This document shows positions 58-42,002 of a DNA stretch of 64,000 nt, piece by piece. The stretch's first letter is position 1, and each line of letters opens with the position of its first letter. The notes beneath the pieces are model-generated. The model saw only the letters and a program-made list of their open reading frames with translations. It was not told where the DNA came from and searched no databases. This DNA comes from Pyropia yezoensis (taxonomy: Eukaryota > Rhodophyta > Bangiophyceae > Bangiales > Bangiaceae), in assembly GCA_009829735.1 (NCBI GenBank), contig CM020618.1, forward strand, positions 1,063,096 to 1,127,095, given 5' to 3'. Made by a program: the position numbers and the translations under genes.

Positions 58-526
58 TGTGGCAAAAACCACTCGCACACACAGTACCCAAGTTGGGGCG
101 GTGTGCGAGGGCTGCCTCCCGTGTCGGGGGAACCGGAAGAAGTGCAAGTCGCACACACTCTATCCCTGTTGTGGGGCAATCCCCCCACGGACAAAACAAG
201 AAGATGGTGTGTGGTCCAACAGTTTCTTGGTCGGGACGGGGGACGCAGGGCCAAGCCCGCTGTCCCTCCCCTTATCCCCCCAGGGTCCACTCAGAATCTC
301 GCCACTCAGAATCTCCCACCCCAGCACCTGCCCACCGGGCCACACGAAAATTCAAGACGATAAATGCAGAAAACCCTCAAATCCAGGTTGGATTTACTAC
401 TAAGCTAACTATCCCGAACTTAGGGAATATGGACCCAAATGCAGGGGGAGGAACGGATCAGGCTAGTGGCCTGCCGCCCCTTGCATGGCACGTGTTGCCC
501 CCTACCTGGGGGTCAATACTGCCACA
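58..526 (-). repeat. 3' LTR of element A1
   Basis: This 469-bp repeat begins TGTGGCA and ends TGCCACA, a perfect 7-bp terminal inversion. It is nearly identical to 8974-9441 and 10457-10925. Inside it a 14-base unit, CCACTCAGAATCTC, is repeated in tandem near 289-318. Relative to the element the LTR reads on the minus strand. Confidence 0.93.
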
Positions 527-539
527 CTCCCCTCTCCTC
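527..539 (-). other. Polypurine tract of A1
   Basis: The minus strand reads GAGGAGAGGGGAG directly against the 3' LTR. That is the expected position and composition of the RNase H-resistant primer for plus-strand DNA synthesis. Confidence 0.8.
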
Positions 540-872
540 AGTTCCGACCGACCCGGTCGGCCCTGTGAGGGGGTGCGTAAACGCACGTCTCGGCGTTGGG
601 GGGGGGGGGACGCGACTTGCTGTCCCCCCTTGAGTACGTAACGCGGATGTGGAGGCGGTCACGTTGGCCGCCCCTCTCCTCAAGCTTGCCCACTTGGCAG
701 CTTGCTCTCCTCGGTTCACACCTCACCACCACCACCACTTCTCCTTCACCTTACACGGGGCCACCCCACGCTGGGGAGGCCACCCGTTTACCCACGATCC
801 GAGTCCCCCTCAACTCGAGGCGGGTCTCGTGCCGCGATAGCCAGGACGTCTCTCCCCAACTTGGGGAGAGCC
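540..872 (+). other. Upstream region of the antisense ORF of A1
   Basis: No gene is seen here. The stretch contains a run of G at about 597-609 and, at 850-870, a perfect inverted repeat (stem CTCTCCCCAA, single-base loop) ending two bases before the ATG at 873. If the antisense frame is transcribed, its promoter and 5' leader must lie here or in the LTR. I see no clear TATA box. Confidence 0.4.
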
Positions 873-2816
873 ATGGCGACTCCGGGAGTGGAGACGGACT
901 CTCTCGATGAGCGTATGGAGGACACCTCCTACGGTGCAGCGCCTGCCGGGACTTCCGGCGGGGGCTCCGCGATCGCTCCGGGGGGTGGGACTCCCGCGTC
1001 ACCCGGCTTTGGGTTGACGGCAGGATCTCCCCCGGAGGCGGGACAAGTTGTCCCGCGTGAGGCCTTGGGGCGGTGGTTTTACCCCGCTTGGCCTCTGTAT
1101 GAGGAGGGGTTGACTGTTCTTCGCTGTGGCCGACTCGGCGCAGCGATGGGTCGGGTATGGGACCGCCTACGGGAGAAGTATCCCCGTAGGGTCGGGTTCC
1201 CTGCCGGCTTCAGGACGGACCAGTTTGCCTTCCTGGACGACGAGGAGGTCGAGGACGTGCAGCGGGCCAAGGCCATGGTGGACCGCGGGGGAACTATCCC
1301 GGGTCCCGGCGACTTGCCGACCTTCACTTGGGACGCGGTGGCAACTCGCCCCCCGTACCTTCACGAGGCCGATCCGCACACTCATCACTTTGATGTGCGG
1401 ATGGAGAAGGACTTCCGGCGAGGTCCCTACTTGGTGACCTCGGCTCAACTTGAGTTTCCTCAGCAGTCTGCTGCCAGTAAGGAGCAATACTACCCGAAGA
1501 AGCCCGAGTGGTGGCCTCAAGTTGAGGTCCCCTACGGGTTCCCGGCATTGTTGCCACGGTTGCTTGACCACTTCGGCTCCGTCATGTTGACGGCTGGCCC
1601 TGTTCATCTGGTGTGGGCCATGTTGGCCACCCAGTGGCTCCTCGAGGTCATGTCGACCTGGGTGTCATGTGTTCAGCGGCGGGGGATGCTCTGGCATCTC
1701 CCCCTCCGGCTCATCCAGGGTTTGGAACAGCTCACCCCTCAGCTAGTTGCTGAGGGGTGCTCGTCAGGACAACTCACTCTACTTGAGGAGATGCTCCGCC
1801 TCCACAAGTTTATCGAGTGGGAGAGCATTGAGCACAAGTTGCGCCGCCCCACTCGGGGGCCCAAGGACGATGGCGCACTTCGCCAGTTCGTGTGGGTCGC
1901 TCGTGAACTTCACGACGGCCGGGTGGTCCTACGAGAGGGGTTGGGCATCGGGGACTACCCGTATGCCCCGGGGGTGGATCGTCACACTGCGCCACCCCCG
2001 GACAAGCCCATAGTTATGGCTGTGCCCTCATATGATGACCATATGACTCAACCTACTGCGGGGGCCCCAAGTCGGGGTCGCAGTTACACCCGGGTACCGC
2101 CACCTCGGCGTGCCCCTCCGCTTCCTCCTGTTCCTTTCCAGCCTCACGGGAACATCCCGATCAGCGTGGCCGTGGAGTCATCCACACCGGTGTCTCCCAA
2201 CTTGGGGGCCACCCTCCTGACGGTATACCCCAAGTTGGTGTTACCGCCCACGCCTCTAACCTCAGAGATGATGATCACCACGTTGGTGCGCACCATTTCC
2301 TGGTTGGCCGCGTCGACCGCAACCCTCCAAAGTTCCGAGACTCCTCAACTTGAGGAGCGCGTTCGTACTGCAGTGGCGACCGCGAGTTGCGAGTCGGTGG
2401 CGGAGTTTATGACGGCCGAGTTGGCTCGCATTGGGGCTATTATGCCCCAGCCAACCCCACTTGGGCGTGGCAAGCGTCGTGCGAGCCGGGCATACTCGCC
2501 TCCTCGCCGTCGTCGCCGTCACTCGCGGCGCTCTCCCTCCGTGTCGGAAGACGAGTTGTCTTACTCCGTCTCGGAGTCCTCTACCCCATCGGAGACGGAG
2601 TCTGTCCAGCGTCTGCGTCGCAAACTTGCGCGCAAGACCAGGCAGAAGAGTAGCCACGGTCGGCGCCACTTGCGCGACCGTGAGGGGCGCGACGGTTCCG
2701 ACTTGGAGCCGCCGCCCCTTCCAACGAGTGGAGACCGTTATCGGCGTGGGTCTCGCCGCTCGCCTCCACGTGAGGGCGAGGGCCGTGGAGTGGGAGAGTC
2801 TAGCATGCGTGCCTAG
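873..2816 (+). CDS. Antisense ORF of family A (aORF-A), unknown function
   Basis: This 647-residue frame lies on the strand opposite to gag and pol, between the pol stop and the 3' LTR. The frame is open from 702, but ATG 873 (context gagccATGG) is the likelier start because the codons before it encode low-complexity sequence. The N-terminal 60 residues are Gly/Pro-rich. A globular part follows (about 65-400), with a helical stretch around residues 225-330 containing FGSV and LWHLP motifs that recur in the antisense frames of families C and D. The C-terminal 150 residues are Arg/Ser-rich with likely nuclear localisation signals. I see no signal peptide, membrane segment or enzymatic motif. 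Antisense ORFs are known in some plant gypsy elements, but I recognise no family here. A nuclear, nucleic-acid-binding role is inference from composition. Confidence 0.75.
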   Translation: MATPGVETDSLDERMEDTSYGAAPAGTSGGGSAIAPGGGTPASPGFGLTAGSPPEAGQVVPREALGRWFYPAWPLYEEGLTVLRCGRLGAAMGRVWDRLREKYPRRVGFPAGFRTDQFAFLDDEEVEDVQRAKAMVDRGGTIPGPGDLPTFTWDAVATRPPYLHEADPHTHHFDVRMEKDFRRGPYLVTSAQLEFPQQSAASKEQYYPKKPEWWPQVEVPYGFPALLPRLLDHFGSVMLTAGPVHLVWAMLATQWLLEVMSTWVSCVQRRGMLWHLPLRLIQGLEQLTPQLVAEGCSSGQLTLLEEMLRLHKFIEWESIEHKLRRPTRGPKDDGALRQFVWVARELHDGRVVLREGLGIGDYPYAPGVDRHTAPPPDKPIVMAVPSYDDHMTQPTAGAPSRGRSYTRVPPPRRAPPLPPVPFQPHGNIPISVAVESSTPVSPNLGATLLTVYPKLVLPPTPLTSEMMITTLVRTISWLAASTATLQSSETPQLEERVRTAVATASCESVAEFMTAELARIGAIMPQPTPLGRGKRRASRAYSPPRRRRRHSRRSPSVSEDELSYSVSESSTPSETESVQRLRRKLARKTRQKSSHGRRHLRDREGRDGSDLEPPPLPTSGDRYRRGSRRSPPREGEGRGVGESSMRA

Positions 2817-2927
2817 TTGGCAGCTGCCTTTGTTGTGAGAGTGTGAGGGTTAGGGCTGTAGTTTAAAGCCACTCTGCGTACCACTTCGACTTGAAGCACT
2901 CTCTTGGCACTGTTGCTCGGCCTTTCC

Positions 2928-5900
2928 TCACGTTGAGGGAGGGCTGTTAGGGTCTATCTCGTTCCGGGCACAGTACGCCCGGACCTTCTCAGCAGGAAGG
3001 TCCTCCACATACTCCCACGTATCATCCTTGGCTTTGTAGCCAAACCAACGCACCCTCAACATGAGGCGGTCAGTATCCTCATCCCAGCCGTGGTCGATGA
3101 ACTTGTCGAACACGTACTCCTGCGGGCCCTGTTTGGCTGCAGGCAGCGAGGGCAGGCGCCACGTTTTCAAAGCACGCGCCCAAGCTGGGTCGCCTGCAGG
3201 CGGTGGTGCAACTTTGACCACGTCCTGTCCGTTCACTGTGCGGACCCCATCGTCACTTTCGATGGTGAAGCGCCGCCCATCAGTACGAAGGACCTGGTAC
3301 GGCCCCTTCGTCTGGAACACCAACTTACCCCCAGTTGGGGTGTGTGAGTGGACCAATACCCAGTCACCCTGCTCGGGGACATGCTTGGCGTTGCGCACCT
3401 TTTTGTCAAAGGTACGCTTGTAGCGCTTTTGTGCTTTGTCCATCTCAGCCCTGACTTTAGGGATGAGGTTTTCAAGCCTAGCAGCGAACTCCGCCTTACT
3501 CTCAGTAGGAGTGGGCGTACTGCCACCATCCTCCCTAGTTGGGAGCGGCCGCCGCACGGCAATAGACCGCACGCGACGGGGGGTCACAAAAGCGAGGGGT
3601 ACTTCCCCGGTAGATGAGTGAACCTGCGAATTGTAGGCAGTGGTCAGAATAGAAATGTATTGGTCCCACGTCTTCACGTGCTCACTCACATAATGGCGCA
3701 GCTGCCTAACAATAGTTTTGTTGAAGCGCTCCACCTGCCCATTAGTTTGTGGGTGGTAGGGGGTGGCATAGTTTGCCTTAACCCCCAACATATCCAGCAC
3801 TCCTTGAAACAGTACAGACGCAAATTGCGGTCCATTGTCCGATAGTGTACTATCCGGAATGCCATACGCGGCAACCCAGTGATCTAGGAAGGCTGACACG
3901 ACCGACATGGCCGTGATCTCTGCCAGTGGGATCGCTCGCGTAAGTTTCGTGAAGCGGTCACAGATGACCAGGAGGTACTGGTTGCCCTCCTCGGTCACTG
4001 GCAGTGGCCCAAGGATGTCCATCGCCAACGCGGCGAAGGGCTCCTTGGCCGGGAACAATAGCATAGCCGTAGTAGGCCGCCGTTCCATCAGACGGTTCTG
4101 TGCACAACTTGTGCAGGCAGCCACCCAACTGTAGATGTCCACCACCATGGACGGCCAGTAGTACCTGGTCCTCAGGGTCTGGTACAGTTTACTAGACCCC
4201 AGGTGTCCACCCGTGGGAGCGTTATGCTCCCTCTCAAGGATACTGTCCTTGAGGGATGCGGGGACGACAAGTTGTTCGGTCCCCTGGAATACCCCCCTCC
4301 TCATGAGGAGGCCATCGTCTCCCAGGAAGAACCGCGTCTCCGCCACTGTATCCAGGGTATCCCTCTGCGACTTGCAGAAGGGATCCTCGGCCTGGGCCTT
4401 CACTACTTCGTCCAGGGACAGGGGCAAGTACTTCTTGTTCCCTGGCGCCTCGGGATTCAACGCCTGACCCGAGCGCGTGACTACCCCCACGATGGGGATG
4501 TCCTCATCGACTGGGGTGGTGTCCAGTCCCTCGGTAGGTACCCGAGAGAGGCCGTCGGCAAGGGCATGTTGCCTGCCAGGTCGGTACTCAATATCAAAGT
4601 TGAAGGGTGCAAGTCGCACCCTCCACCGGTTGAGACGAGTGTTCGTACAGTCCGTCTTGAAGATGAACTGCAACGCGCGGTGGTCACAGCGGATGAGGAA
4701 CTTCTCACCCTCTAGGTAGTGACGAAGTGACGTCACCGCCCATACCACTGCGAGTCCTTCCAACTCGGTGACTCCGTAGTTCTTCTCGGCCGAGTTTAGC
4801 CCCTTGCTGAAGTATCCCACCGGCAAGTACTCCTTGTCCGGCTGTTGCTGAAGCAACACACAACCAAGTTGGTCGTAGCTAGCGTCCACATCCAGGATGT
4901 AGTGGCCTCCCAACCTGGGAATAGCCAGGATAGGGGGCTTCAGCAGAAGGTCCCGAAGAGTCTCAAAGGATTCCTGCTCCACCCGACTTGGGGGAGGCAG
5001 GTTCTTCGGTAGCGTTGAGCTCACTAACTCATTCAACGGCTTCGCCACTTTGGCGAAGCCCTTAGTGAAACGTCGGTACACGTTACACATCCCGAGGAAG
5101 CTCCTCATCTGGGTCTGGGTCCGGGGGTACTGAGCCTTGCGGATGGCCCTCAAGTTTTTCTCGTTGACACTGAGACGCCCCGGACGGACAACATGTCCCA
5201 AGTACTCCACCTCTTGAGTGAAGAGGTGGCACTTACTCGCCTTCAGTGACACTCCGGCGTCAGCAAGTAGCTTGAACACCTGGCCAAGATGGCCAATGTG
5301 TTCCTCCGGACTTCGGGAGAACACAATGATATCGTCTAGGTACACGAGACAGATCTGCCACCGTACTCCGGCCAGAATCATGTCCATAGCGCGCTGGAAA
5401 GTTGCCGGCGCGTTACACAGGCCAAACGGTAGACGCTTGCACTGGTAGGTACCACAGTGACAGGTAAAGGTAGTTTTATGCCTGTCCACCGGGGCAATGG
5501 GAATTTGCCAGTACCCCGCGTTACAGTCCAGGGTAGAGAACACGTTTGCCTCCCCCAGAGAGTCCAGACAGTCATCCATCCGAGGTAGGGGATAACTATC
5601 CTTCACCGTGCTCTCGTTGAGCTTACGGTAGTCGATACAGAACCGGGGGGTCCCATCAACTTTGGGGACGATCACCACCGGACTCGCCCACTCGGCGTTG
5701 CTGGCCTCGATCACATCGAGGGCCTCCATGCGAGCAACTTGCTCCTTAACGAGGGCCCTTGAACGGGGTCCCCCCCTATACGGTTGTTGGCGTATAGGGG
5801 GCGCACCGGGTTTCAACTCGATCCGGTGTTGGGTAGCTCTCATGAGTCCCAATTGACCATCCCACAACTTGTGATATTGGTCCAAGAGGCGTTCAACTTG

Positions 5901-6911
5901 AACCCTCAACCTGGGTGGAACACCCTCCATGTTTACCTGGGGCCGAGGAGAGGCGGCCGACTTGGCTTGATGCTTCTCCTTTCCGGACTTCGGGTCGCTA
6001 CTTGCGCCCGCGCTGAGGGTGACCGCTACTACCGGTCCCTCGTGTTGGTCGATATAGCCGAACTTGGCCCCCGACTTGAAGAACTTGGGCGACGAGCTCA
6101 GGTTCATCACCTGGATCCTCCACGGGACTCCGGCTTTGGAGTCCATCGTGCCCAGGGCAACATGCACTTGGTGCTTGCGAGCAAGACGGGGGTTAGGGTG
6201 CACCAACCCGTTCCCCGCATAATCAGTTACAACATCCACGTGCGCCACCGAGTTGGGGGGCAACGTGACTTTACGGGCTAAACGCAGAGTAGCAGTAAAC
6301 CCTTCCCTCACAGAACAAACAGGCTTCGACTGTGAAACTGTCACAGGAGCCACAGACTTTCCCTTACCAAGGATGGGGATAGTCTCCCCATTCATCAACT
6401 TGACCCAGTACTCAGGGCCACAAATCAAAGGCACTTGTGTTACGACATAAGGGGTACCCAGAAGCAGGGGTACCGATATATTCTCAACTACACCATAGGT
6501 CACGTCGACCTCATGGGTCCCCAACCGAGTTGGTAGGGTCACGGCACCAACGATGGGAAGTACCCCACCATTGATATCGATCAGATGGTCAGCTTTAGAC
6601 TTCCAGCGTTGGAGCCTCATCCCCTTTGGTAATAGCGACTTGCGTATCAAGGAGGCTCCTGACCCGGTATCAAGTACGATACGGGCACAACAGGCGCGGC
6701 CGGGGGCAAGTTGCACCCGTCCAGCCACCTGGAAGTTCTCACCCGTCAGCACCGCGATGACCCGACGTGGGTTTACGTTCTTGGGAAGTCCCACCCGAGG
6801 TGGGCGGACTCCCTTAGGTCGCCGCAGTATCCGACACGGTTGGTTCGTCCTCTTGGCCCACTTGGCCGAGGCTGCCGTTGTGAGCTTCGGACGACCAGCT
6901 CCAACGGTCAT
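2928..6911 (-). CDS. pol: Pol polyprotein of element A1
   Basis: This 1327-residue frame is open from ATG 6911 and lies in the -1 frame relative to gag, so a Gag-Pol fusion through 6914-6920 is the likely product. Domains in order: aspartic protease with DTGSG at about 81-85; reverse transcriptase with YLDD at about 525; RNase H starting near 670; integrase with an HHCC zinc region at about 900-940, then the D, D and E catalytic residues in MDILGPL (about 963), SDNGPQF (about 1021) and VERFNK (about 1058). A chromodomain-like tail (RVRWFGYKAKDDTWE) sits at about 1270-1315. All key residues are present and the frame has no break. The ATG overlaps the gag stop as ATGA, so reinitiation is an alternative to frameshifting. 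Confidence 0.95.
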   Translation of the reverse strand: MTVGAGRPKLTTAASAKWAKRTNQPCRILRRPKGVRPPRVGLPKNVNPRRVIAVLTGENFQVAGRVQLAPGRACCARIVLDTGSGASLIRKSLLPKGMRLQRWKSKADHLIDINGGVLPIVGAVTLPTRLGTHEVDVTYGVVENISVPLLLGTPYVVTQVPLICGPEYWVKLMNGETIPILGKGKSVAPVTVSQSKPVCSVREGFTATLRLARKVTLPPNSVAHVDVVTDYAGNGLVHPNPRLARKHQVHVALGTMDSKAGVPWRIQVMNLSSSPKFFKSGAKFGYIDQHEGPVVAVTLSAGASSDPKSGKEKHQAKSAASPRPQVNMEGVPPRLRVQVERLLDQYHKLWDGQLGLMRATQHRIELKPGAPPIRQQPYRGGPRSRALVKEQVARMEALDVIEASNAEWASPVVIVPKVDGTPRFCIDYRKLNESTVKDSYPLPRMDDCLDSLGEANVFSTLDCNAGYWQIPIAPVDRHKTTFTCHCGTYQCKRLPFGLCNAPATFQRAMDMILAGVRWQICLVYLDDIIVFSRSPEEHIGHLGQVFKLLADAGVSLKASKCHLFTQEVEYLGHVVRPGRLSVNEKNLRAIRKAQYPRTQTQMRSFLGMCNVYRRFTKGFAKVAKPLNELVSSTLPKNLPPPSRVEQESFETLRDLLLKPPILAIPRLGGHYILDVDASYDQLGCVLLQQQPDKEYLPVGYFSKGLNSAEKNYGVTELEGLAVVWAVTSLRHYLEGEKFLIRCDHRALQFIFKTDCTNTRLNRWRVRLAPFNFDIEYRPGRQHALADGLSRVPTEGLDTTPVDEDIPIVGVVTRSGQALNPEAPGNKKYLPLSLDEVVKAQAEDPFCKSQRDTLDTVAETRFFLGDDGLLMRRGVFQGTEQLVVPASLKDSILEREHNAPTGGHLGSSKLYQTLRTRYYWPSMVVDIYSWVAACTSCAQNRLMERRPTTAMLLFPAKEPFAALAMDILGPLPVTEEGNQYLLVICDRFTKLTRAIPLAEITAMSVVSAFLDHWVAAYGIPDSTLSDNGPQFASVLFQGVLDMLGVKANYATPYHPQTNGQVERFNKTIVRQLRHYVSEHVKTWDQYISILTTAYNSQVHSSTGEVPLAFVTPRRVRSIAVRRPLPTREDGGSTPTPTESKAEFAARLENLIPKVRAEMDKAQKRYKRTFDKKVRNAKHVPEQGDWVLVHSHTPTGGKLVFQTKGPYQVLRTDGRRFTIESDDGVRTVNGQDVVKVAPPPAGDPAWARALKTWRLPSLPAAKQGPQEYVFDKFIDHGWDEDTDRLMLRVRWFGYKAKDDTWEYVEDLPAEKVRAYCARNEIDPNSPPST

Positions 6912-6920
6912 TCGTTTCCC
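6875..6920 (-). promoter_or_regulatory. -1 ribosomal frameshift signal at the gag-pol junction of A1
   Basis: The minus strand carries the heptamer GGGAAAC (6920-6914) in the gag phase G GGA AAC, the classical X XXY YYZ arrangement. Slippage to GGG AAA enters the pol frame. After a 6-base spacer (GAATGA, containing the gag stop) a stem forms between CCGTTGGAGCT (6907-6897) and AGCTC-A-CAACGG (6886-6875), that is 11 base pairs with one bulged A. Spacer length and stem strength fit known -1 frameshift stimulators. The function is inferred from sequence. Confidence 0.8.
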
Positions 6921-8854
6921 GCCGACTTGGCGTCCGAATCTGAGGGCGAAGGGGACGACGACGAGTCCGAGGACGACGTGTCCGCCCCCTCCGTCGAGGG
7001 TGTGGCGACCGCCACCACTGGTCGAGACCCACCCTCGCGGCGTGAACGCACTTCGTTCGTAGCCGACTTCTTACTCGCATTCCTAACAAGCTGTTGGATG
7101 CGTTTACTCAACTTGGGGCAATCATATGCCCAGTGACCATCGGAGTTGCAGTTCCAACACCGATGATCAGTTCCCGGAGGGGTCTTCCCAACTGGGGAAG
7201 ACGACGAGGTACCTTGGGAAGTTCCCACGGCAGCTACCACCCTCTCCTTGCGGATTCGGCGTGCCTCTCGCAACTCTCTGGCCTGGCGCGCCTCTTCCCG
7301 TTCCTTGGCCAACTCGGCCTGACGCTCCTGGCGTTGTTCTTCCCGCAACTTGCGGTAGGCCTCGCCTCTGCGGTAGGCGAACCTAGCCAACTCGGCCAGG
7401 GTCGCCCGGGCAGTGTTATGCTCCCGGGTCTCCATCCGGACTGACCAGTGGAGTCCTTCCACAAACCGACTCTTCACCACAGCTTGTGGATGAAGAAACC
7501 CACAAAGATTGTTGAGCTTACGGACTCGCTCCGCAAAGGACAACTCGTCCTCCGCCTCTTCCTGATGGGCTTGCGTAAACTCCTCGACTTGAGAAGCCAA
7601 CGCCGCTTCATCAACCATGGCCCTCAACAACCAGTTGACGAGCTCCAAATAGGACGTCACCTCCCCAGCGCCTCCACTTGAGGAGCTGGGCATGACGGAC
7701 ATAAGTTCTGTCCGCAGGTCTCCCTTCGTAAACTCCTGTAGCATGTAAAAAGCCATGCCTTCACTTATGGCATTGTCGTCACAGGCTTTTGTGAAACGAC
7801 GTAGGAACTCAAAGACACGGAGGGGGGGAGTTCCATCCCACTCCGCTCTGTGCCCAAAAGAATGAAGTGCATTCTTCTTGGCACGGCCCATAGCTCGGGC
7901 CTGGTCAGGACCATACGCCACCGACTTGTTGTGGAGAGCGTAGGTCTCACAGTCAAAGATCCGCTGGTAGACCGGGTTGGCTACCTGAATCTTGGGCGGC
8001 ACCTCACGTTGAGGGAACAGCCGCTGTGGCACTGGGGTAAGTCCACCCTCAGTGCCTGTAGTCTGGTACGGCGAGCTTGGTGTAGCCGCCGGCGTTTCCG
8101 AGGGGAACTCCCCCGTGAAGGGCGTACGCCCCACCGCGTATGGTGTGGCTCCCTCGTTGGGAGTCACAGGTGTCGCCCCCAGTTCGGGGCGACCCGAGAT
8201 AGGCGTGGGGAGGGATTCCCCCTGCGCCTGTGGGCTCGAAAGCCCCAATCCGGTCTGGACATTCAGGCCATCTGGCAAACTCGCTACAATCTGATTCAGA
8301 ATAGTATTCGTCATCGTGACCACCAGGTCCGGCAAAGTCTGCCGCAACACATTGGTCGCCTCCCGACGGACAGTTTCCGCGAGGAGTGGATTGACGACTC
8401 CAGTTGAGTCTCGGTCCGCCTCCGGGAGTCCACCTGAGGGGTAACCACGTTCCTCAGGGGTCTCAACCGGGGGCATGGGCGCGAGCCCATCGCCGACCAA
8501 CGGAGGTCCGCCGTCCTCCGAAAGCCTAGTTGGCGATGGCTCCATGCCAAAGTTGGCTCCAACCCGAGTGGAACTCGCGGGGACAGTCCTCACCCCTTGG
8601 GACGTTCCCGTTGAGTATACCACGCGGTGGCCAGACTTCGGCCCACCCACGTCAGAAGTGTCACCCGAGTGAACTCCCGACTGAGTCGGGGTGGCCTGTT
8701 GCCCGCCCGCACTTCCAGTCCTGCTGGCTTGAGGGACCTCTAGTCCCTCTGCGACCCCAGGTAAACCCACCTGTGTCTCACCAGTATTCAAAGGCACTGA
8801 AGTACGTGCGTCACCCGTGTACTCCCCGGACGACGGGGGGTCCGAGCTAGCCAT
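6908..8854 (-). CDS. gag: Gag polyprotein of element A1
   Basis: This 648-residue frame starts at ATG 8854 (residues MASSDPPSSGEY); the open frame extends eight codons further but without an ATG. The N-terminal half is Pro/Gly/Thr-rich. A capsid-like helical region lies around residues 300-480. A charged, Glu/Arg-rich probable coiled coil covers about 500-540. A CCHC zinc knuckle, CWNCNSDGHWAYDC, follows at about 565-578, and a Ser/Asp-rich tail ends in GNE. Gag forms the virus-like particle and its knuckle binds genomic RNA. It ends in TGA inside the ATGA overlap with pol and carries the slippery heptamer in its last codons. The leader to the primer-binding site is only about 100 bases. Confidence 0.93.
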   Translation of the reverse strand: MASSDPPSSGEYTGDARTSVPLNTGETQVGLPGVAEGLEVPQASRTGSAGGQQATPTQSGVHSGDTSDVGGPKSGHRVVYSTGTSQGVRTVPASSTRVGANFGMEPSPTRLSEDGGPPLVGDGLAPMPPVETPEERGYPSGGLPEADRDSTGVVNPLLAETVRREATNVLRQTLPDLVVTMTNTILNQIVASLPDGLNVQTGLGLSSPQAQGESLPTPISGRPELGATPVTPNEGATPYAVGRTPFTGEFPSETPAATPSSPYQTTGTEGGLTPVPQRLFPQREVPPKIQVANPVYQRIFDCETYALHNKSVAYGPDQARAMGRAKKNALHSFGHRAEWDGTPPLRVFEFLRRFTKACDDNAISEGMAFYMLQEFTKGDLRTELMSVMPSSSSGGAGEVTSYLELVNWLLRAMVDEAALASQVEEFTQAHQEEAEDELSFAERVRKLNNLCGFLHPQAVVKSRFVEGLHWSVRMETREHNTARATLAELARFAYRRGEAYRKLREEQRQERQAELAKEREEARQARELREARRIRKERVVAAVGTSQGTSSSSPVGKTPPGTDHRCWNCNSDGHWAYDCPKLSKRIQQLVRNASKKSATNEVRSRREGGSRPVVAVATPSTEGADTSSSDSSSSPSPSDSDAKSAGNE

Positions 8855-8953
8855 GTTGGCTAACGATCCGTATGACACGGTCCAAGTCCACCGTTCCTCT
8901 GAGACAGAGGGCCCCCTACACCCGGGTGCACCCGGAGGTAAAGTTTACCTCTG

Positions 8954-8971
8954 TCCCCTGCTGCTCCACCA
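8954..8971 (-). other. Primer-binding site of A1
   Basis: The minus strand reads TGGTGGAGCAGCAGGGGA two bases after the 5' LTR. It begins with the TGG complementary to tRNA CCA ends. The complement has the layout of a T-stem plus acceptor stem plus CCA (CCCTG, CTGCTCC, A, CCA). I cannot name the tRNA. The same site is used by families C and D in this window. Confidence 0.8.
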
Positions 8972-8973
8972 AA

Positions 8974-9441
8974 TGTGGCAAAAACCACTCGCACACACAG
9001 TACCCAAGTTGGGGCGGTGTGCGAGGGCTGCCTCCCGTGTCGGGGGAACCGGAAGAAGTGCAAGTCGCACACACTCTATCCCTGTTGTGGGGCAATCCCC
9101 CCACGGACAAACAAGAAGATGGTGTGTGGTCCAACAGTTTCTTGGTCGGGACGGGGACGCAGGGCCAAGCCCCGCTGTCCCTCCCCTTATCCCCCCAGGG
9201 TCCACTCAGAATCTCGCCACTCAGAATCTCCCACCCCAGCACCTGCCCACCGGGCCACACGAAAATTCAAGACGATAAATGCAGAAAACCCTCAAATCCA
9301 GGTTGGATTTACTACTAAGCTAACTATCCCGAACTTAGGGAATATGGACCCAAATGCAGGGGGAGGAACGGATCAGGCTAGTGGCCTGCCGCCCCTTGCA
9401 TGGCACGTGTTGCCCCCTACCTGGGGGTCAATACTGCCACA
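8974..9441 (-). repeat. 5' LTR of element A1
   Basis: This 468-bp copy of the A LTR (TGTGGCA ... TGCCACA) differs from 58-526 by only a few bases, mostly homopolymer length. It should contain the promoter for the gag-pol transcript running leftward. No convincing TATA box is visible. Confidence 0.93.
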
Positions 9442-9446
9442 ATCCT
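9442..9446. repeat. Target-site duplication of A1 (right copy)
   Basis: ATCCT here matches 53-57 on the other side of A1. Joining the flanks across one copy restores the uninterrupted gag reading seen at 7955-7975. Confidence 0.85.
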
Positions 9447-10338: not shown

Positions 10339-10456
10339 GTTGGATAACGATCCGTATGACACGGTCCAAGTCCACCGTTCCTCTGAGACAGAGGGCCCCC
10401 TACACCCGGGTGCACCCGGAGGTAAAGTTTACCTCTGTCCCTGCTGCTCCACCAAA

Positions 10457-17844: not shown

Positions 17845-20800
17845 AGGACGCGCGTCGAAGAAACGCGTCTAAAACTTCAGGGGCGTTCACAAGGTCTTGC
17901 TTTGTCAGCCAAGAGTTCTCGCTGATGTCGCAGCCTTTCCATTTGACGAGGTACTGCAGTCGTCCACGGCGCTTTCGTGACCGTATAATGGAGTCCACTT
18001 CATACTCGACCGAGCCATCCGGAAATGTAACCGGGGGTGGAACGGGAGGAAGTCGACCATACGGATCAGCGCGGTACGGCTTCAGGAGGCTGGCATGGAG
18101 GGCGTTGTGAACTTTGCGATCGAGGACAGCTTGAGGAAGATCGAGACGGAACGTGACGTCATTGATGCTCTCCGTGACTTTGTAGGGTCCGGAGTATTTG
18201 GGCATCAGCTTACGAGCGCCTTGAAAAGCGTCGGGCAAGAGGTTCTTAGTGCTGAGGAGTACGTGGTCGCCCACAGCGATTGTGCATGGTCGGCGATGAC
18301 GGTTTGCGTACGCCGCGCGCGTCTCATTGGCGCTCTTGATGGCGGCGATAGCCGTCTTTTGAGCATCGTGGAGGCTGGATAGCCAATCCGACACAGCAGG
18401 AAGATTTGAGTCCCTGCTGTCGAGGATGTCCATAGGCACGGTCCTTGGTTCAAACCCGTAGTTCAAGAAAAATGGAGAGTACGTGGTTACGGCATTAGGT
18501 GACCGGTTGTACGCAACTTCCGCGCCAACGAGGACAAGATCCCAGTCGCCTTGATGATGGTTGACGAAGTTTCTGAGGATTTCTTCAATTTTCTTGTTCA
18601 TAATCTCAGTTTGGCCGTCCGTCTGCGGGTGGTAGGCCGATGAGGCTTTGATCTTGACCTTGAGGATCTTTGTCAGTGACCGCCAGAAGTTGGAGAAAAA
18701 GATGGGGTCGCGGTCACAGACGACTTCTTGAGGTAGGCCGTGGTTGCGATAGACGTGATCGTGGTAAAGCTGAGCTGTGACCGGCGCTGTACATTCCGGC
18801 TTCATTGGTGCCAGGCGAATCATCTTGGTGAGTCGGTCAACAACGACATAAATGCCGTTGTGGCCTCGTGGTGTCAGTGGCAGTGGGGTGATAAAGTCCA
18901 TGGAGACACTTGCCCATCTTTGGCTTGGGGGTTCGAGTGGTTTGAGATGACCCAGAGGTGAATGAGTGCTAGCCTCGTTCCGCTGGCACGAATCACATGA
19001 TTGTACGTATCTTTGGATGTCCTGCCGCATAGATTTCCAGTAGTAATTGGAAGCAACGGCCTTGGTGGTTTTCTTCACTCCCATGTGCCCTTGGCACGGG
19101 GCGTCATGGTAGTCGTGGAGGAGTCTTTGACGTAGAGTACCAGCGGAGATGCACGTACGGTCACCTCGTTTCAACAACCTCATATGAAACCGGTAGGGAG
19201 ATACCGGGTCCTTGGCTAGGTCGGCAAATTCGGGGTCCGCTTTGTACTCTTGTTCTAGGGTGGCAAGGTCTTGATCACTTTGGTTGATGGTCATGAGGTT
19301 GTTGATTTCAGTTTTCTTGAGGGTTTCGTCAATGGTCTTGGTCAGCACGCGACTAAGGAGATCTTGGTTGGGTTCGTGCTTGTCAGGGGCATCTTGGGGT
19401 TGCCTGGAAAGGGCATCAGCTACGGCGTTGGAGATGCCTTTGATCGGGACAATCTTGAACTGGAATTGGTCCAGAAGTTCAAGCCACTTGACTTGGCGGT
19501 CGTTCAGCCTTTCTTGGGTTCGCAGGTATCTCAGGGACTCGTGGTCGGTATGGACCTCAAAGGGTCTTCCGTGGAGGTAGCAGCGCCAGTGCCGGATGGC
19601 TTGGACCACTGCGAGCAGCTCACGTTCGCGGATGCTGTAGCGTTGTTCGTGGATATTCAAGGTCAGGGAGAAGAATGCCACTGGACGCCGTCCCTTTCCG
19701 TCGTCTTGTTCGAGGACTGCGCCAATAGCATACCCGCTGGCATCAGTAGACACGTAGATGGGATATCGTTTGTCAAACGGCCTTAGTACCGGTGCACTTG
19801 ATGTCAGAGTCTGCAGCTGCTCGAAGGCTTTTTGGGCGTCCGGCGTCCACTCAAAGTCGACCTTCCCCGTCAACCTCGTAAGAGGGCTTGCAACTGCGGC
19901 CATTCCCTTGATAAATGGGCGATAGAAGTTGACCATACCGAGGAAGGACTGCACGTCCTTCTTGCTCTTGGGGGTTGCCCACGTCCGAATGGCTTGGACC
20001 TCCTGGTCCTCCATGGAAAAGCCTGCGTCAGATATGACGTGGCCGAGGTAATCGACAGTGGATCGAGCGAATTGGCACTTACTCGCCTTGGCGTAAAGCT
20101 TGTGGTCTCGTAGCTTGGCCAGGGTTTTTCTCAGGTGCTTGAGATGATCCTCGTAGGTTTCGCTGTAGACCAAAATGTCGTCTAAGTAGACGCAGATGAA
20201 GTCGTACATGTAGGGTCTGAACACATCGTTCATCAAGTTCATGAAGACTGCGGGGGCGTTCGTCAGTCCGAAGGGTAGCACAGTAAACTCGTAGAATCCA
20301 TACTTGGTCCGGAACGCCGTCAATGGGATGGTGTCAGGGTCCAGCCGGATCTGGTGGTAGCCAGAGCGGAGGTCAATCTTCGTGAAATACTTGGCCTTTC
20401 GTAGTTGATCAAAGATGTCATCGATACGTGGTAGAGGATACGCATTCTTGATGGTGGCCTTGTTCAATGCTCGGTAGTCGATGCACATCCGCCAGCCGCC
20501 GTCCTTCTTCGCCGCAAATAGAACGGAGGAGCCCCACGGTGAGGCACTTGGCTGGATGAATCCCTTCCGAATCAGGGTCGCAAGTTGCGTCTTGAGTTCA
20601 TCGAGTTCCCACTCGGAGAGGCGGTAAATACCGCTGCGACGTGGTTCAGCGTCGTCGGTCAGCTTGATGCTAAACTTGTGACTACGCTCGGGAGGGAGTC
20701 CGTCCGGGAGCTCAGCCGGGAAGACGTCAGCGTACTCCTTGAGAATCTGTTGGACTTCATTTTTGTCTTCAGCTTCTCCCATAATGATGGAGTTGATGTC

Positions 20801-21379
20801 AAAGCTGCTTGAGGGGTCTTCAGACTGCAGGTAGATGGCGAATACAGGGGTCCTTTGGATGAGGTCACGTGCGAGTCGTTGCCGGCTAATGAGGCCCTCC
20901 GGTTTCTTGAGGGAGGCGGTGATAGAAATATTCTTGTGGATGAACTTAAAGGATATCTTGTTCTTCTTGTTGTTGATCTTGGCGCCCTTGTCATCGCGCC
21001 ATTTCTTACCGAGGATAACGTCGTACGCACTGAGGTCGCATACGGCGAACCGTAGTCGTTCTTGGTAAAGGCCGATGTGAATCTCTAAGGGTTCAATGGT
21101 TTCAGCGAGTACATGGGAACGTCCATCGGGCATGTTTGCCGCGAAGTCCGTTTCAGTGGTCTTGACATTCAGGGTTTTCATGAGGCGCCTGGAGACGACG
21201 TTGATGGGAGACCCGTCGTCGAACAGCACCTTTACAACATGGCCATTGACAGAAGCAGTAGAAAGCAGTAGCCCGAGACGCGGGCCTTCAAAGGGTGATG
21301 ATTTGTTTTCCGGAACCAAAGGAGCATCTTTCACCGTTGTTGACGACGGTTGCTGCTTCAGTTCCGCTGGCCTTTTGGG
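17843..21379 (-). CDS. pol: Pol polyprotein of chromovirus B1
   Basis: The frame is open over about 1179 codons from the slippery site at 21379. No ATG opens it (the first start-like codon is GTG at 21334), so it should be made as Gag-Pol by -1 frameshifting. Counted from 21334: protease with LFDDGS at about 37-42 (an unusual variant of the D-T/S-G motif); reverse transcriptase with YLDDILVYS at about 381; RNase H; integrase with HHCC (HMGVKKTT ... CDSCQ), D in MDFIT (about 810), D in VCDRD (about 871) and E in GQTEIMNKK (about 905); a GPY-type module (YSGPYKV); and a chromodomain (VDSIIRSRKRRGRLQYLVKW) at about 1108-1155. Chromodomains of this class steer integration to particular chromatin. 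The frame is intact. Confidence 0.93.
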   Translation of the reverse strand, partial: PKRPAELKQQPSSTTVKDAPLVPENKSSPFEGPRLGLLLSTASVNGHVVKVLFDDGSPINVVSRRLMKTLNVKTTETDFAANMPDGRSHVLAETIEPLEIHIGLYQERLRFAVCDLSAYDVILGKKWRDDKGAKINNKKNKISFKFIHKNISITASLKKPEGLISRQRLARDLIQRTPVFAIYLQSEDPSSSFDINSIIMGEAEDKNEVQQILKEYADVFPAELPDGLPPERSHKFSIKLTDDAEPRRSGIYRLSEWELDELKTQLATLIRKGFIQPSASPWGSSVLFAAKKDGGWRMCIDYRALNKATIKNAYPLPRIDDIFDQLRKAKYFTKIDLRSGYHQIRLDPDTIPLTAFRTKYGFYEFTVLPFGLTNAPAVFMNLMNDVFRPYMYDFICVYLDDILVYSETYEDHLKHLRKTLAKLRDHKLYAKASKCQFARSTVDYLGHVISDAGFSMEDQEVQAIRTWATPKSKKDVQSFLGMVNFYRPFIKGMAAVASPLTRLTGKVDFEWTPDAQKAFEQLQTLTSSAPVLRPFDKRYPIYVSTDASGYAIGAVLEQDDGKGRRPVAFFSLTLNIHEQRYSIRERELLAVVQAIRHWRCYLHGRPFEVHTDHESLRYLRTQERLNDRQVKWLELLDQFQFKIVPIKGISNAVADALSRQPQDAPDKHEPNQDLLSRVLTKTIDETLKKTEINNLMTINQSDQDLATLEQEYKADPEFADLAKDPVSPYRFHMRLLKRGDRTCISAGTLRQRLLHDYHDAPCQGHMGVKKTTKAVASNYYWKSMRQDIQRYVQSCDSCQRNEASTHSPLGHLKPLEPPSQRWASVSMDFITPLPLTPRGHNGIYVVVDRLTKMIRLAPMKPECTAPVTAQLYHDHVYRNHGLPQEVVCDRDPIFFSNFWRSLTKILKVKIKASSAYHPQTDGQTEIMNKKIEEILRNFVNHHQGDWDLVLVGAEVAYNRSPNAVTTYSPFFLNYGFEPRTVPMDILDSRDSNLPAVSDWLSSLHDAQKTAIAAIKSANETRAAYANRHRRPCTIAVGDHVLLSTKNLLPDAFQGARKLMPKYSGPYKVTESINDVTFRLDLPQAVLDRKVHNALHASLLKPYRADPYGRLPPVPPPVTFPDGSVEYEVDSIIRSRKRRGRLQYLVKWKGCDISENSWLTKQDLVNAPEVLDAFLRRAS

Positions 21380-35650: not shown

Positions 35651-38600
35651 GGCAGGCGCTCTCCCCAAGTGTCTTCCCGAATCTCCAACGGCAGGGTACT
35701 TCTACCTGTTCTCCCCTTGCGTGCCGGGAGAAAGGACGGCAGTTACCTGCTCAACCGGTAGCCGCCTGGACACCCTGTTTGTTCAAGGGACCTTGCTCGT
35801 CCTGCGTAAGGAAAACCTCAAGATTAATGCTCGTATGCGTGTGGGGGATAGCCTCCCCCAAGCTGTTACGCCGGTGGTCGACACGGGAGCCGGACCAAGC
35901 GTCATCACTGAGAACCTGTTACCTCCGGGCTGGCGTCGACATGCCTGGAGAGCGCCTACCAAGACCCGGATTGTGGACGCATCAGGTCAAACCCTACGAC
36001 CGCTTGGCCGTCTTCCCGTCGCCATCTATGTCAACAATGAACCAATGCTTTTTCCCTTTCTAGTAGTCAAGACCTTATCAGTCCCCCTCATCCTAGGCTG
36101 GGACTTCCAGAAGCAGCATGTCAAGAGCATCCTACCGGAGAAGGAAAGGTGCAGTTCAACCATGGGTTTGTGTCACCAGTGCTGGAGCACCTGGACACCA
36201 AGGTTCGTGTGGCCAAGAACCAGAAGGAACGCATCCCACCCTCTACCTTGACCCTCATCAAACCGGTGCTCCTACCTCCTCGCTCGGAGACCAAGGTTCA
36301 AGTCACGACCCGGACTGCAGGTCAATGCCTGATCTACGGACGCAAGGAATTTCTGGCGAAACACCGATTATACCTAGCCCACGGACACCACAAGAAGGTG
36401 GAGAGGCACACCCCGTTCTCGGTGCTGATCGTCAACGTGAGCCGGAAGCCAATAACCCTCGCCAAGGGCACTCGAGTTGGTACAGCAGAGCCTTACCGGG
36501 GGGTCCGCCCGCGCTATGAGCAAGGAAGACCTCTTCAACCTGCAACAAGAGCTGGCATCCAACTTGACGGCCTTAGACGTATCTCCGGAACAAGAGCAGG
36601 CTGGCCGTATTACTCCGAAGCCCGAACAAGCACCGCCCGGGATGCCGAAGGTCAACCAAGAAAACGTCCCTCCCGACTTGAAGGAGGCACTGGAGAAGCT
36701 TCTCCAGGAATACCGGCACCTGTGGTCCGGAGAGCTGGGCAAGATGGACGCCACCCTACACCGGATTCAACTCAAGCCAGATGCCAAACCAGTGCACATG
36801 CACCCATACCGGGCTGGACCTCATCGCCGGGATGAGATTGAGAAGCAGGTTAACAAGATGCTCAAGATGGATGTTATCGAGCCGTCTGATGGCGAGTGGG
36901 CTTTCCCGGTGGTAGTCGTCCCGAAAACCTGGCGGTCACTTCCGTTTCTGCGTTGACTACAGACGCCTGAACGAGATGACAGTCAAGGATGTATACCCGA
37001 TACCCCGGATGGATGATTGCCTCGACTTTCTTGGTGATGCCACCCTCTTCTCGACGCTGGATTGTAATGCCGGTTACTGGCAGATCCCTCTGGCTGACGA
37101 GGACAAGGACAAGACTACCTTCACGTGCCACCTGGGACTATTCCGGTGCAAGCGTCTCCCTTTTGGTCTCACTAATGCTCCGGCAACCTTCCAGAGAGCC
37201 ATCGACATCATCCTGTCGGGCTAAGGTGGAGAACATGTTTGGTCTACCTGGACGACATCATTGTTTTCTCCAAGACCCCAGCGGAACACCTGGAGCACCT
37301 TCGAGAGGTCCTGGCCCTCCTGTCCAAGGCTGGAGTTACCCTCAAGGCCGAGAAGTGCCACCTGTTTGAGACTGAGGTGGAGTACCTGGGGCACGTGCTG
37401 AGTCCGGGGGAGCTCCGAGTCAATGAGAAGAACATCAAGGCCCTCCGGCATGCACGGCAACCTAAAACCCAGACGGAACTCAAGAGCTTCCTGGGTATGT
37501 GCAACGTCTACCGCCGGTTCGTACGGGACTACGCTCTGATTGCCCGGCCCTTGACCAAGCTTACTAGCAAGAAGCTTCCAGCACAACTCCCGGTGTTCGA
37601 CGAGAAGCAGACAGCAGCCTTCGAAGAGCTCAAGAAGCGCCTGACCACCACTCCAGTACTGGCGTTACCCAAGCGGGAGGGTCAGTTTGTTCTGGAGACT
37701 GACGCCTGTGGCGTCCAGGTGGGGTGCTCACTACTCCAGCAGCAACCTGATGGGCACTTCCTCCCGATAGGCTACTACAGTCGCGTCTTGACTCCAGCCG
37801 AGAAGAACTATTCCACGACCGAGCGCGAGTGCTTGGCGGTCGTCTGGGCTTGCTTCCTGTTACGTCCATATCTTGAAGGACAAGAGTTCCTCATCCGGAC
37901 GGACCACGCCAGTCTAAGGTGGCTGCTATGCATGGACAGCAGTCAAGGAAGGGTCGCCCGGTGGGGCCTACGCCTTTCGGAGTTCAAGTACAAGGTGTGC
38001 ACCAGAGCAGGGAGGGAGCACCACTGCGCCGACACCATGTCCCGGCTGGAGACTCCTGCAGCCGATACCGGTCCTATCCCGGAGGAAATACCTTGCTTCA
38101 TCCTCCCGAATGTCGGACGTGGCTGGCACGCTCCCCTGTACGAGACACCTGACGCTCATCAACCGGTAACCATTCACCGGATGCTGGAGGCACAATTGAC
38201 GGACCCTCAATGCTTGGAGCTTCGCCACCAAATGGACCTGAACCGGAACAGTCGCTTCTCCGAGTCTACAGACGGACTCCTGGTACGGGTGTCACCCTTC
38301 GATGGGGCAACTCAAGTCTACGTACCCCGGAGCCTACGGACTGACATCCTACGCCTGGAGCACTCGTCTCCCCAGGCCGGACATCCTGGTATCAATCGGA
38401 TGTATGCTTCCATGAGACGACACTATTACTGGGAAACCATGGCCAGTGACGTCCATAAGTGCCTGGAGGCTTGTATTTCTTGTGCAAGGAACCGGTTGTC
38501 CCAGAGGAAGAAGACTTCTAAGCTACGCCTATTCCCTGCGGCGGAGCCCTTTGCAAGCTTAAGCATGGACATCCTGGGGCCCCTACCTGAGACCTCCAGT

Positions 38601-39739
38601 GGCAACATATACCTGCTCATCATTTGTGACCGGTTCTCCAAGTTCACTCGAGCAATCCCGTTGAGAACCATCACGGCTCTGGATGTCACGTCGGCCTTCT
38701 GCGAGTACTGGATAGCTGCCTATGGCCCTCCAGACTCCGTCTTAACCGATAACGGTCCCCAGTTTGCATCCCTGTTCTTCCAAGGAGTCTGTGACCTGAT
38801 GGGCATCAAGAACTTGTACACCACGACGTACCACCCTCAAACGAACGGCCAGGTGGAACGATTCAACCGGACCCTAGTGGACATGCTACGGCACTACGTG
38901 GAGGAGCATCAAGAAGACTGGGACGAGCTCCTGGCTGTCCTCACTCTAGCCTACAACTCCCGAGTTCACCGGACAACGGGAGTCGCTCCACTCGACTTTG
39001 TCACCCCAAGGCGGCTGACCAACTTCTCCCTAGAAAGAAATACCGGATGGTCTCCAGCCTGCACTGAAGTCAGGTCCCAAGGCAAAGGATGAGTTCCTGG
39101 AACAACTAAAGCTCCTGCTCCCAAGAGTCAAGGAGTCAATCTCAAAGACCCAGGAGCGATATAAGCGGGACTATGACAAGGGTGTCCGGGAAAAGAACAA
39201 GGAACTGGGTGGTGGCGACTGGGTTTTTGTGGACAACCATAGCAAGACCCGGGGGAAGCTGGACTCTAAGACGGATGGACCTTATGAGATTCTCAATACG
39301 GATGGCTGGACCTTCCTTCTAGACGTGGATGGCTCCTCCGTACCGGGGTGAGCCAGCGACCATGTCACCCGAGCTCCACCGCCAAGCCAACGGGACTTGA
39401 CCCGGCGTAAGCGGACTGCGATACCTGGCTATCCAAGAAGAAGGTCGGGAATTTGTCTACGTCAAGTTTGTCGACCATGCCTGGAGAGATGGACGCCTGT
39501 ACCTGCGAGTACGCTGGTTCGGTTTCAACCCGGCAGATGATACATGGGAACCCTCAAACCGGCTACCCATCGCGGACGTCTGTGCCTACACGCGACGGAA
39601 CGGGATTGAGGGCACTCCCGTGGCCAGAGCCGGCAAGATTCTGGAGTCGGACACGGAGGAGGACCAAGAGGACGGGGCCAACCAAGACCCTCGGGACGAG
39701 ACGAGCTCACCCGCAACGGATGCGGAACAAGAGGATTGA
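35645..39739 (+). pseudogene. pol: Pol of element C2, with frame breaks
   Basis: Protease has VVDTGAGPSVI near 35880. Reverse transcriptase follows (NAGYWQIP near 37070, YLDDIIVFSK near 37245), then RNase H from about 37700, integrase with HHCC near 38360-38490, MDILGPL, LTDNGPQF and VERFNR, and a chromo-like tail (RVRWFGFNPADDTWE) near 39510. A 617-codon stretch (37239-39092) is open. Breaks near 36135, 36925, 37225, 39035 and 39340 are one-base changes relative to C3. The true stop is TGA 39737-39739. All catalytic motifs are preserved, so the breaks may be technical. Confidence 0.88.
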
Positions 39740-39884: not shown

Positions 39885-42002
39885 CTACTCTCGGCGCGGA
39901 CGCTGAGCCGAGGGAGTATCCTCCGGCGCTGCCCCCGCGGTACGACGGGAACCGGAGGAAGACGGGATGACGTAGTGCGGTGGACGCGGCGCATCCCGGT
40001 ATGACGCCATCGGAGTAGTACCAGTAGTTGCCGGTGGCTCCCGCTCATCCAGATATGTCCGTCGGCGCCGCTGGAAGCCCGTGAAGGTCTCTGACCACTG
40101 CTGGGCCAAGCCATGCCGCGTCAAAGTCGCCAGGAGTTCGCCAACCACCGGGTTGTTCGACATCTGACCGCTGTCCGCGCAAGCAAACACCCGGTCGACC
40201 ACGTCGTTCAAGACACTGGCGTAAGTGCCCAGCACCAGAGAAGACCCGACGCCTTCAACCTGCACCGGAAGACGACCCAGCTTGTCTTCAATCATACCGA
40301 CGTCGTACTGGTCGCATGTTGGACCACCTTGGTTCAGGTACCAGTCAGGCACCCGGAAGCGGGTAAGGCGCAGAGTCGGCGCCGGAATCTCGAACCGGCC
40401 CGAGGATGACACTACCGGACGGTCCACAACGGCCCCCGAGACCGGAGTGCCCAACTCCAGCGGAGGCACAGCGCCGCCGGCGTTGGAAGAAGGCGTCCGG
40501 GGTAGAGCGACCGGAGTAGTCGGCGACCGCACGGCCACTCCCAGACTCGCCGCAGACAAGCGCGGTGCCGGAGGAGCTTGAAGTACCGGCACAGCAGGAA
40601 CAGGGCGCGGACGCGCCGGTGACGGTTCAGGCGAGGCAACCGGGGCGACAGGGGCAACAGGAGGAAGCGGAGCCGCCGCAGACGCCCGACCGACCGCCGC
40701 GGCCCATCCCGACTCCCGCACCGGCGGCCCAACTGGCAGAAGATCAAGGGCGGCCGGAGCAGGAAAGCTACCTAGCTGCGGCCACGCCGGAAGCGGCGTC
40801 GCCAGCTGCACCTTAGCCGGAGAAGACTGGTAGACCACCTGCGCCCAACCGTAGCCATCCCGACGCGGGCGGTTCTGGTCGGCAATCGCGTTCAAGAAGC
40901 TCCGGTCATGCACCGGTACCAGACGCCGGAAGTCGATCATCGCCTGGAAGAGCTCCTTGTACTCCTCGTCCTCGCTGCACAGGAAGTCGACGGTCAACTT
41001 GTCGACAATCCAGACCATCAGGAGGTCGGGGAGAAACCAAAGCCGGTTGGACACCAAGACCTCGTGAAGCCAGTGGTTGGCCGCCAAGACTGTCATCTCG
41101 GACGTGTACATCATGTACGGGATTGAATGGAAGAAGCCCTTGATCGACGCCTGAGTCAAGGCGTCCAAGAAGTACCAGGTGCAAGGGATGCTGGAAGGAG
41201 CAAACCCGACCGGGATCTCGACTTCCTGCTGCTGCGTGATGACCTTGGGGTAGTATGCCGCCCGGTTGGCCTTGTCCAGCTTCCAGAACTCCTGATGATT
41301 GCAGCTCACATGAAGTCACGCTGACGCCCGCGTCGCTCACCCTGCTCCCGTGCCGGCGACAACTTGGAGTATTTCCGGGTCAAGAAAGGCGGCTCCAGAG
41401 CGACCATGCTCGGACGGGGGTCGCAGTTCAAGCTTCCCGACCCCTTGAGCGCCTCGTCCCAGACCTTGAGCGCCCGGTGGACGTACCCTTCCTCCTCCGG
41501 CCACCGGAGAACGGACGCGGACACGCGACGCTCGGTCAAGGGTAGATCCAGTACCAGTGCGAAGGGGAGATCCTCCAGACGAGCAACCCAAGAGGAACCC
41601 GAGAAGCTCTGAGAGCGGTCTTGTGCCAGGCGCATCTGGTCCGCCGTATGAAGACGTGCCTTGTCCATCTCGGTCAAGACCCCCGCGCTGGAGTTCCTTG
41701 CGCCAGAGGTCCATGCAATCCTGCTGGCACTGGGCCGCGCCGGCGTTGCCAACCACCGTGGAGTAACGCCGGGCCGCCAGAGGGTCCTGCCCAAGGAGCA
41801 TCTCCGGGAGACCCTCCGGGGGGGTCTCGACCGGGTGCATCGCGGAAGCCGGGGGAACTCGATCCGTCCCCGCCGTGGCGACCGGCGCCGGCACCGACAT
41901 CCGAGGAACCGGAGGCAGGAGAGGGGCACGACTACCCGAGTTCTCCTCCGCAACACTCGCCGCCGGAACCACGGGCCCAGCTTGGATCTCGGAACTGGAC
42001 AT
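39885..42002 (-). CDS. Antisense ORF of family C (aORF-C), unknown function
   Basis: This long frame lies on the strand opposite to C2 gag and pol, between pol and the 3' LTR. The largest open piece is 474 codons (41309-39885). It appears to continue upstream through two frame breaks (near 41307 and 41690) to ATG 42002 (MSSSEIQAGP), giving about 700 residues. The N terminus is Pro/Ala/Val-rich. The middle has AYYPK, VEIPVGF and LWFLPDLL in the same order and spacing as YYPK, VEVPYGF and LWHLPLRL of the family A antisense ORF. A Pro-rich linker follows, then a helical C-terminal part. No enzymatic motif, signal peptide or membrane segment is seen. I do not recognise a family. Confidence 0.7.

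Follow-up and report, generated by a model that had tools for sequence, protein, structure and literature searches.

The 64,000-nucleotide stretch of the Pyropia yezoensis genome analyzed here (contig CM020618.1, positions 1,063,096 to 1,127,095; hereafter the window) raises the question of why a Ty3/gypsy retrotransposon should carry a long open frame on the strand opposite to gag and pol. In the element of family A, a single open frame of 647 codons plus stop (873..2816, plus strand) lies between pol (2931..6911, minus strand) and the 3′ long terminal repeat (LTR). The stop codons of the two genes are separated by 111 bp, placing them tail to tail without overlap. The initial annotation of the window had proposed that this frame and similar ones in two further gypsy families, C and D, encode one homologous antisense protein and that this protein is an old part of the element lineage. 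Our analyses bear out this proposal and, with families E and F added to A, C, and D, extend it to five families or more, with relatives of D also found in Pyropia vietnamensis. The frames of these five families almost certainly constitute a conserved antisense protein gene of a single family.

All three families named by the annotation have a long frame opposite gag-pol and behind pol, but the C and D copies in the window are broken. The antisense gene of C (39888..42002, minus strand), opposite a pol region at 36597..39610 (plus strand), contains two frame changes that leave pieces at 41676-42002, 41309-41683, and 39888-41309; these match at 99% an intact 705-amino acid protein encoded at locus L030. 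The antisense gene of D (about 56718..58371, minus strand), opposite a pol region at 54029..56328 (plus strand), is a frame-broken relic whose best pieces are 78% and 64% identical to an open 815-amino acid frame at locus L059. Both pol regions were recognized by tblastn with pol of A and by Pfam. Over the five families the antisense protein is about 630-950 amino acids long, with variable, often proline-rich N-terminal and linker parts and a conserved core of about 160-200 amino acids. In A, the core matched by blastp with C, D, E, and F spans 1338..1907 on the plus strand (residues about 156-345). The motifs that the annotation had listed, namely YYPK, VEVPYGF/VEIPVGF, FGSV, PVH, and the aromatic-x-LP motif LWHLP/LWFLP/LFHLP, are present in the translations of A, C, and D, and the last of them lies within the core.

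Sequence comparisons supported homology. When antisense protein A was used as the query of a six-frame tblastn search of the window, D (E 5e-7) and C (E 8e-5) were detected, the next match having an E value of 2.5. Full-length blastp gave E values of 2e-10 for A-D and 2e-8 for A-C; none of 1000 shuffles reached the score of either pair or those of A-E, A-F, and E-F, while two of 1000 reached that of D-F. Among 115 open reading frames (ORFs) of at least 200 amino acids, the first six non-self matches of A were the antisense genes of D (two), F, F2 (the partner of F in the comparisons below), C, and E. The LTRs, which the annotation had called unrelated, behaved accordingly: the LTR or LTR-side regions tested gave no DNA match between different families.

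Not every pair supports a single family equally well. The direct comparisons C-D, D-E, and C-F are not significant, their scores being reached by 20, 57, and 60 of 1000 shuffles, respectively, and C-E gave no match in direct pairwise comparison. Profile-profile comparison by hhalign, a check that the annotation had proposed, linked A with D (probability 70, E 5e-6) but linked C, whose profile consists of one sequence, with neither. As hhalign left C unlinked, we base its membership on the blastp match with A and on the A+D profile, which scores C at E 4.7e-4, higher than all 1000 shuffles of C.

The genome searched has 11 contigs totaling 107.5 Mb, of which three measure 43.6, 34.3, and 29.4 Mb. 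Nine stretches behind other pol genes (one of them, L065, a mere extension of L063) were surveyed from the best 150 reverse transcriptase (RT) matches, a choice that favors high scores, and families beyond this sample may differ. This survey revealed homologous antisense frames in two more families, E (L063) and F (L064 and L068), and an F-like element, L067, retains only the first part of the gene. In contrast to these families, no homologous antisense frame was found in the four copies of the chromovirus-like family B that were examined (L062, L069, L070, and L071; 3.5 kb per copy, taken close to where pol ends). One of these stretches, L070, has at 1449-1893 a weak E-like antisense-gene match that points the same way as the B pol and probably belongs to a neighboring element, perhaps of another family. 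We also considered L066/L072 as a chimera, a D element with an F-type pol, and rejected it: the D antisense gene and the F pol there point the same way, an arrangement explained if a D element has landed, inverted, immediately after the end of pol in an F element.

The gene is antisense to pol in all five families. Its site between pol and the 3′ LTR is delimited by both LTRs in A and by the 3′ LTR in E, and is given in C, D, and F, whose 3′ LTRs are undelimited, by position behind pol. In RT, the five families are 58-78% identical to one another and 36-41% identical to B; the C row of the identity table merges two broken pieces. An unrooted RT tree parts the five families from its three B sequences at 100% support, but resolves the branching of D, E/F, and A/C only weakly (39-87). 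Given this grouping apart from B, it is simplest to suppose that the ancestor from which the five families descend already had the antisense gene. Identity between the antisense proteins of different families is low (22-31% in the significant pairs), as might be expected had each family independently captured the same host gene. Such repeated capture is highly improbable, given that all five families share site and orientation and group by RT. Moreover, the best 150 rows of a whole-genome search with the F core, counted by hand, fell into three groups: 66 rows of F type, two E rows with an E value of 3e-6, and 82 rows with 24-28% identity and E values from about 6e-7 to 3e-4. Four of these 82 overlap known A loci, all 20 of the others that were sampled are A-type frames 94-99% identical to A, and the remaining rows (about 58) were assigned to A type without row-by-row comparison; within these limits no host gene was recognized.

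We next asked whether the antisense strand is under purifying selection, measured as omega, the ratio of nonsynonymous (dN) to synonymous (dS) change. The lists of the best 150 copies are sorted by score and the searched cores are thus biased to low dN; omega was therefore taken outside the core for A and C, with each variant among copies counted once. The A set held 19 of 20 loci (the window locus, L009, was dropped) and the C set 28 of 30 (without the window copy L029 and the reference L030). Outside the queried core of A we counted 151 variants, distributed 29/23/99 over the three codon positions, with an omega of 0.25. Omega was 0.37 outside the core of C, and for the D pair L059/L061 it was 0.32 by variant counting and 0.27 by NG86. 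The synonymous counts of the A, C, and D variant sets were reached by none of 1000 shuffles in each. The more distant pair F/F2 (517 codons) gave dS 1.02, dN 0.19, and omega 0.185, with 242 of 415 differences at codon position 3, and E1/E2 (942 codons) gave dS 0.46 and omega 0.19, all seven blocks lying between 0.12 and 0.28. In each of these pairs, five of the six frames contain stops and the antisense frame has none, gap columns having been removed before those five were read. With omega at 0.185-0.37 in sets from all five families, the antisense frame is, by its pattern of substitutions, a protein gene kept by purifying selection, as the annotation's proposal implied.

Two observations pull the other way. 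The close D copies L059/L066 gave an omega of 0.72, on 29 differences, and a low omega, 0.34-0.35 in E1/E2 and F/F2, is also seen in one sense frame, the one with third positions opposite those of the antisense frame. The latter is expected where third positions face each other, and that sense frame bears stops in 8 and 15 codons, respectively. It bears on whether the antisense frame could be a chance product of GC-rich DNA or the mirror image of a sense-strand gene. Shuffling such GC-rich DNA does give long frames, of up to 336 codons for A, 390 for C, and 451 for D, and on the sense strand of D a stretch of 372 codons is stop-free. The observed 647, 705, and 815 codons, however, exceed all 300 shuffles each, the sense frames contain 7-25 stops, and the homology among families exceeds that of shuffles. 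No sense frame, interrupted by stops as these are, accounts for the open antisense frame, and a chance or mirror origin is, in our reading, refuted. The codon-position pattern of the antisense frame and its omega below 1, seen in five families, likewise speak against the view that the antisense RNA, rather than a protein, is what matters. Regulation by double-stranded RNA has been considered for plant elements (PMC7264820), but it is very hard to credit here, and the transcripts of tail-to-tail genes would not necessarily overlap.

The number of intact copies agrees with a maintained gene. Among the best 150 matches for each family, the searched part was stop-free in 150 for A, 148 for C, and 148 for D. 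For F, 23 of 24 copies at 97-100% identity were stop-free, and stops were commoner in older copies. The search with the E antisense protein returned six matches in total, all stop-free and each located 4-5 kb downstream of an E-type RT on the opposite strand; at odds with this regularity, two of the eight E-type RTs (C1:34399532 and C3:6259568) have no antisense match. Beyond this species, a protein-database search with D retrieved six related proteins of P. vietnamensis. Searches with A and with alignment A1 returned just one protein, of the same family, and P. vietnamensis was reached by the D query only; A had no match in phage records, as expected. The entries P0008-P0013, 'hypothetical proteins' of P. 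vietnamensis, could be genes of the elements that were entered as host proteins.

Comparison of closely related elements showed that the antisense gene can be far more diverged than its surroundings. Two pairs were compared, E1/E2 (loci L063, L065, L073, L079, L080, and L083-L086) and F/F2 (loci L064, L068, L074, and L075). E1 and E2 are 99.3% identical in RT, 99.6% from RT to integrase, and 98.2% in the 3′ LTR, whereas their antisense genes are only 83-86% identical (14-17% different); dS is 0.014 in RT and 0.46 in the antisense gene. These figures cover RT to the 3′ LTR, the gag-side stretches of E1 and E2 (L081 and L082) having been out of register. The corresponding dS values in F/F2 are 0.34 and 1.02. 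Because omega is well below 1, the E1/E2 island looks like recombination that imported a diverged version of the gene rather than decay or fast adaptive change. The same figures, with diverged versions beside the same pol and LTR, would also suit an anti-silencing or arms-race factor that is swapped as a cassette. We regard this as an unlikely reading: omega of 0.12-0.28 over all seven E1/E2 blocks gives no sign of positive selection, simple recombination of related elements yields an identical pattern, and the pol tail and spacer of E1/E2 are also more diverged (90.9% identical), in a comparison of just two pairs.

What, then, might the protein do? Taking all results together, we lean slightly toward an explanation in which the old third gene of this Ty3/gypsy lineage, antisense to the others, encodes a nuclear or regulatory accessory protein. 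The gene, carried tail to tail with pol and just inside the 3′ LTR, would be transcribed from an antisense promoter near that LTR and its product translated separately from gag-pol. The protein would then work in trans and, most probably within the nucleus, either regulate element expression or counteract silencing by the host. This mechanism, which resembles the role proposed for the antisense proteins of the plant elements Retand and Grande, we offer tentatively, as somewhat less likely than not. Only two things point to the nucleus, a parallel with the antisense ORFs of plants (PMC7264820; PMC11963269) and stretches rich in arginine and serine. Such 80-residue windows contain 37 of these residues in A, 59 in E, and 31 in F, compared with 25 in Gag of A, and they lie toward the C-terminal end in A and in E, less so in F. 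These stretches give a hint of a nuclear or nucleic-acid role.

Several results count against assigning such a function. Arginine/serine-rich stretches are missing from C and D, and for each of the six antisense proteins tested the number of RS/SR dipeptides is within that of shuffled sequences; we therefore dropped a candidate RS-domain enrichment and keep the rich windows as a hint only. None of the antisense proteins examined has a Pfam domain above cut-off: hmmscan at E 10 gave no match for the proteins of families A, C, and D, for the D protein of P. vietnamensis, for F2, or for an 806-amino acid part of E, and sub-threshold matches to DUF6214 (E 0.015, window D fragment) and at 0.36 (F) were set aside. 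The profile of alignment A3 (A, C, and D), which took in seven of the eight proteins from the database search with D and left out P0013, found no PDB match. Two AlphaFold models were unusable, with mean predicted local distance difference test (pLDDT) values of 34 and 33; the core is helical in these low-confidence models.

A role in replication rather than regulation would make the protein a structural partner of the particle, joining Gag or the pre-integration complex in assembly or nuclear import. Purifying selection and the many nearly identical copies would suit a replication protein, and the arginine-rich stretches of A, E, and F could bind nucleic acid. We nevertheless consider a particle partner improbable. 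No sequence relation of the antisense proteins to Gag was found: Gag of A, one of the 115 decoy ORFs, scored 27.3 bits against F, inside the best-shuffle range of 26-33 bits, and was outside the nine best matches of A, C, D, and E. In addition, a gene in antisense orientation cannot belong to the Gag-Pol polyprotein, and the examined B copies do without one.

Antisense accessory genes of LTR elements have been described mainly in flowering plants, and we know of no function for them. HBZ of the deltaretroviruses is a basic leucine zipper (bZIP) protein; Pfam scans of the algal antisense proteins reported no bZIP domain. Env-like accessory ORFs also lie behind pol but in sense orientation, unlike the algal frame. 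According to PMC7264820 and PMC11963269, the elements Grande, RIRE2, Retand, PvRetro13, and Boty have an antisense ORF that follows pol and precedes the 3′ LTR; TRP28 is present in 97% of Retand clusters, and nuclear localization has been reported for the Grande antisense protein. The algal gene resembles the TRP28 (PF04195) antisense ORF of the plant Retand lineage, gene23 of Grande, and that of RIRE2 in position, without detectable sequence likeness. It is likened by arrangement alone to the ORF of the fungal Boty elements (PMC7264820) and to the antisense accessory genes of the deltaretroviruses (HBZ and APH-2; PMC11963269). Retand, described as a non-chromovirus confined to eudicots and Liliopsida (PMC11963269), also differs from the algal lineage, which has a weak chromodomain and lives in a red alga.

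The algal gene is of the antisense accessory ORF (aORF-3R) type, in that it occupies this position and is conserved in most copies. Transposase_28 (TRP28, PF04195) yielded no candidate in the whole genome at E 10, and none by hmmscan of the antisense proteins at E 10; by sequence the algal proteins thus stand outside TRP28, although a distant common fold is possible. The gene therefore appears to be of a known structural kind and, as far as sequence comparison can tell, to represent a protein family separate from the known antisense ORFs. We found no report of antisense genes of this kind in red algae among the titles and abstract openings of the open-licence papers listed. An independent or very old red-algal counterpart, present in several families and under selection, would mark the arrangement as a recurrent or ancient solution. 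A bolder and rather doubtful extension is that the gypsy elements of red algae possess an ancient antisense gene of their own, with no relation to plant TRP28, whose versions are exchanged or kept diverse as a cassette among elements that are nearly the same in all else, making it a third, convergent 'antisense control protein at the 3′ end'. If true, cassette exchange would fit a protein in conflict with host silencing, in parallel with the flowering-plant elements and deltaretroviruses. The comparative set of five families, a second species for D, and the divergence island could separate regulatory, anti-silencing, and particle roles by experiment.

The remaining features of element A are those of a Ty3/gypsy element. 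It spans 58..9441 with gag-pol on the minus strand and is flanked by a 5-bp target duplication, ATCCT, at 53-57 and 9442-9446. Its 3′ LTR (58..526) and 5′ LTR (8974..9441), both on the minus strand, are 99.2% identical to each other and have the ends TGTGGCA..TGCCACA (TG..CA). A purine-rich tract directly adjoins the former, and a TGG-containing, primer-binding-like sequence adjoins the latter at about 8957-8973. The gag gene (6911..8878, minus strand) encodes a CCHC zinc knuckle (PF00098, E 1.8e-5). In pol, Pfam detected RT, RNase H, and integrase in this order, followed by a weak chromodomain, together with a very weak protease match. Ty3/gypsy chromoviruses have a C-terminal chromodomain behind these domains. 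The chromodomain scores of A (19.5 bits) and C (22.3) are both below the Pfam cut-off of 25.1, compared with 51.5 in the contrast family B, whose pol was located by Pfam at 17846..21334 (minus strand). Beside element A lies a direct repeat (7959-9441 and 9442-10925) of A-family LTR plus internal region, 93.9% identical, and an additional A-family LTR copy is located near it at 10457-10926. The window also contains four runs of exactly 500 N, either gaps or withheld letters, at 11902-12401, 27288-27787, 42308-42807, and 53528-54027.
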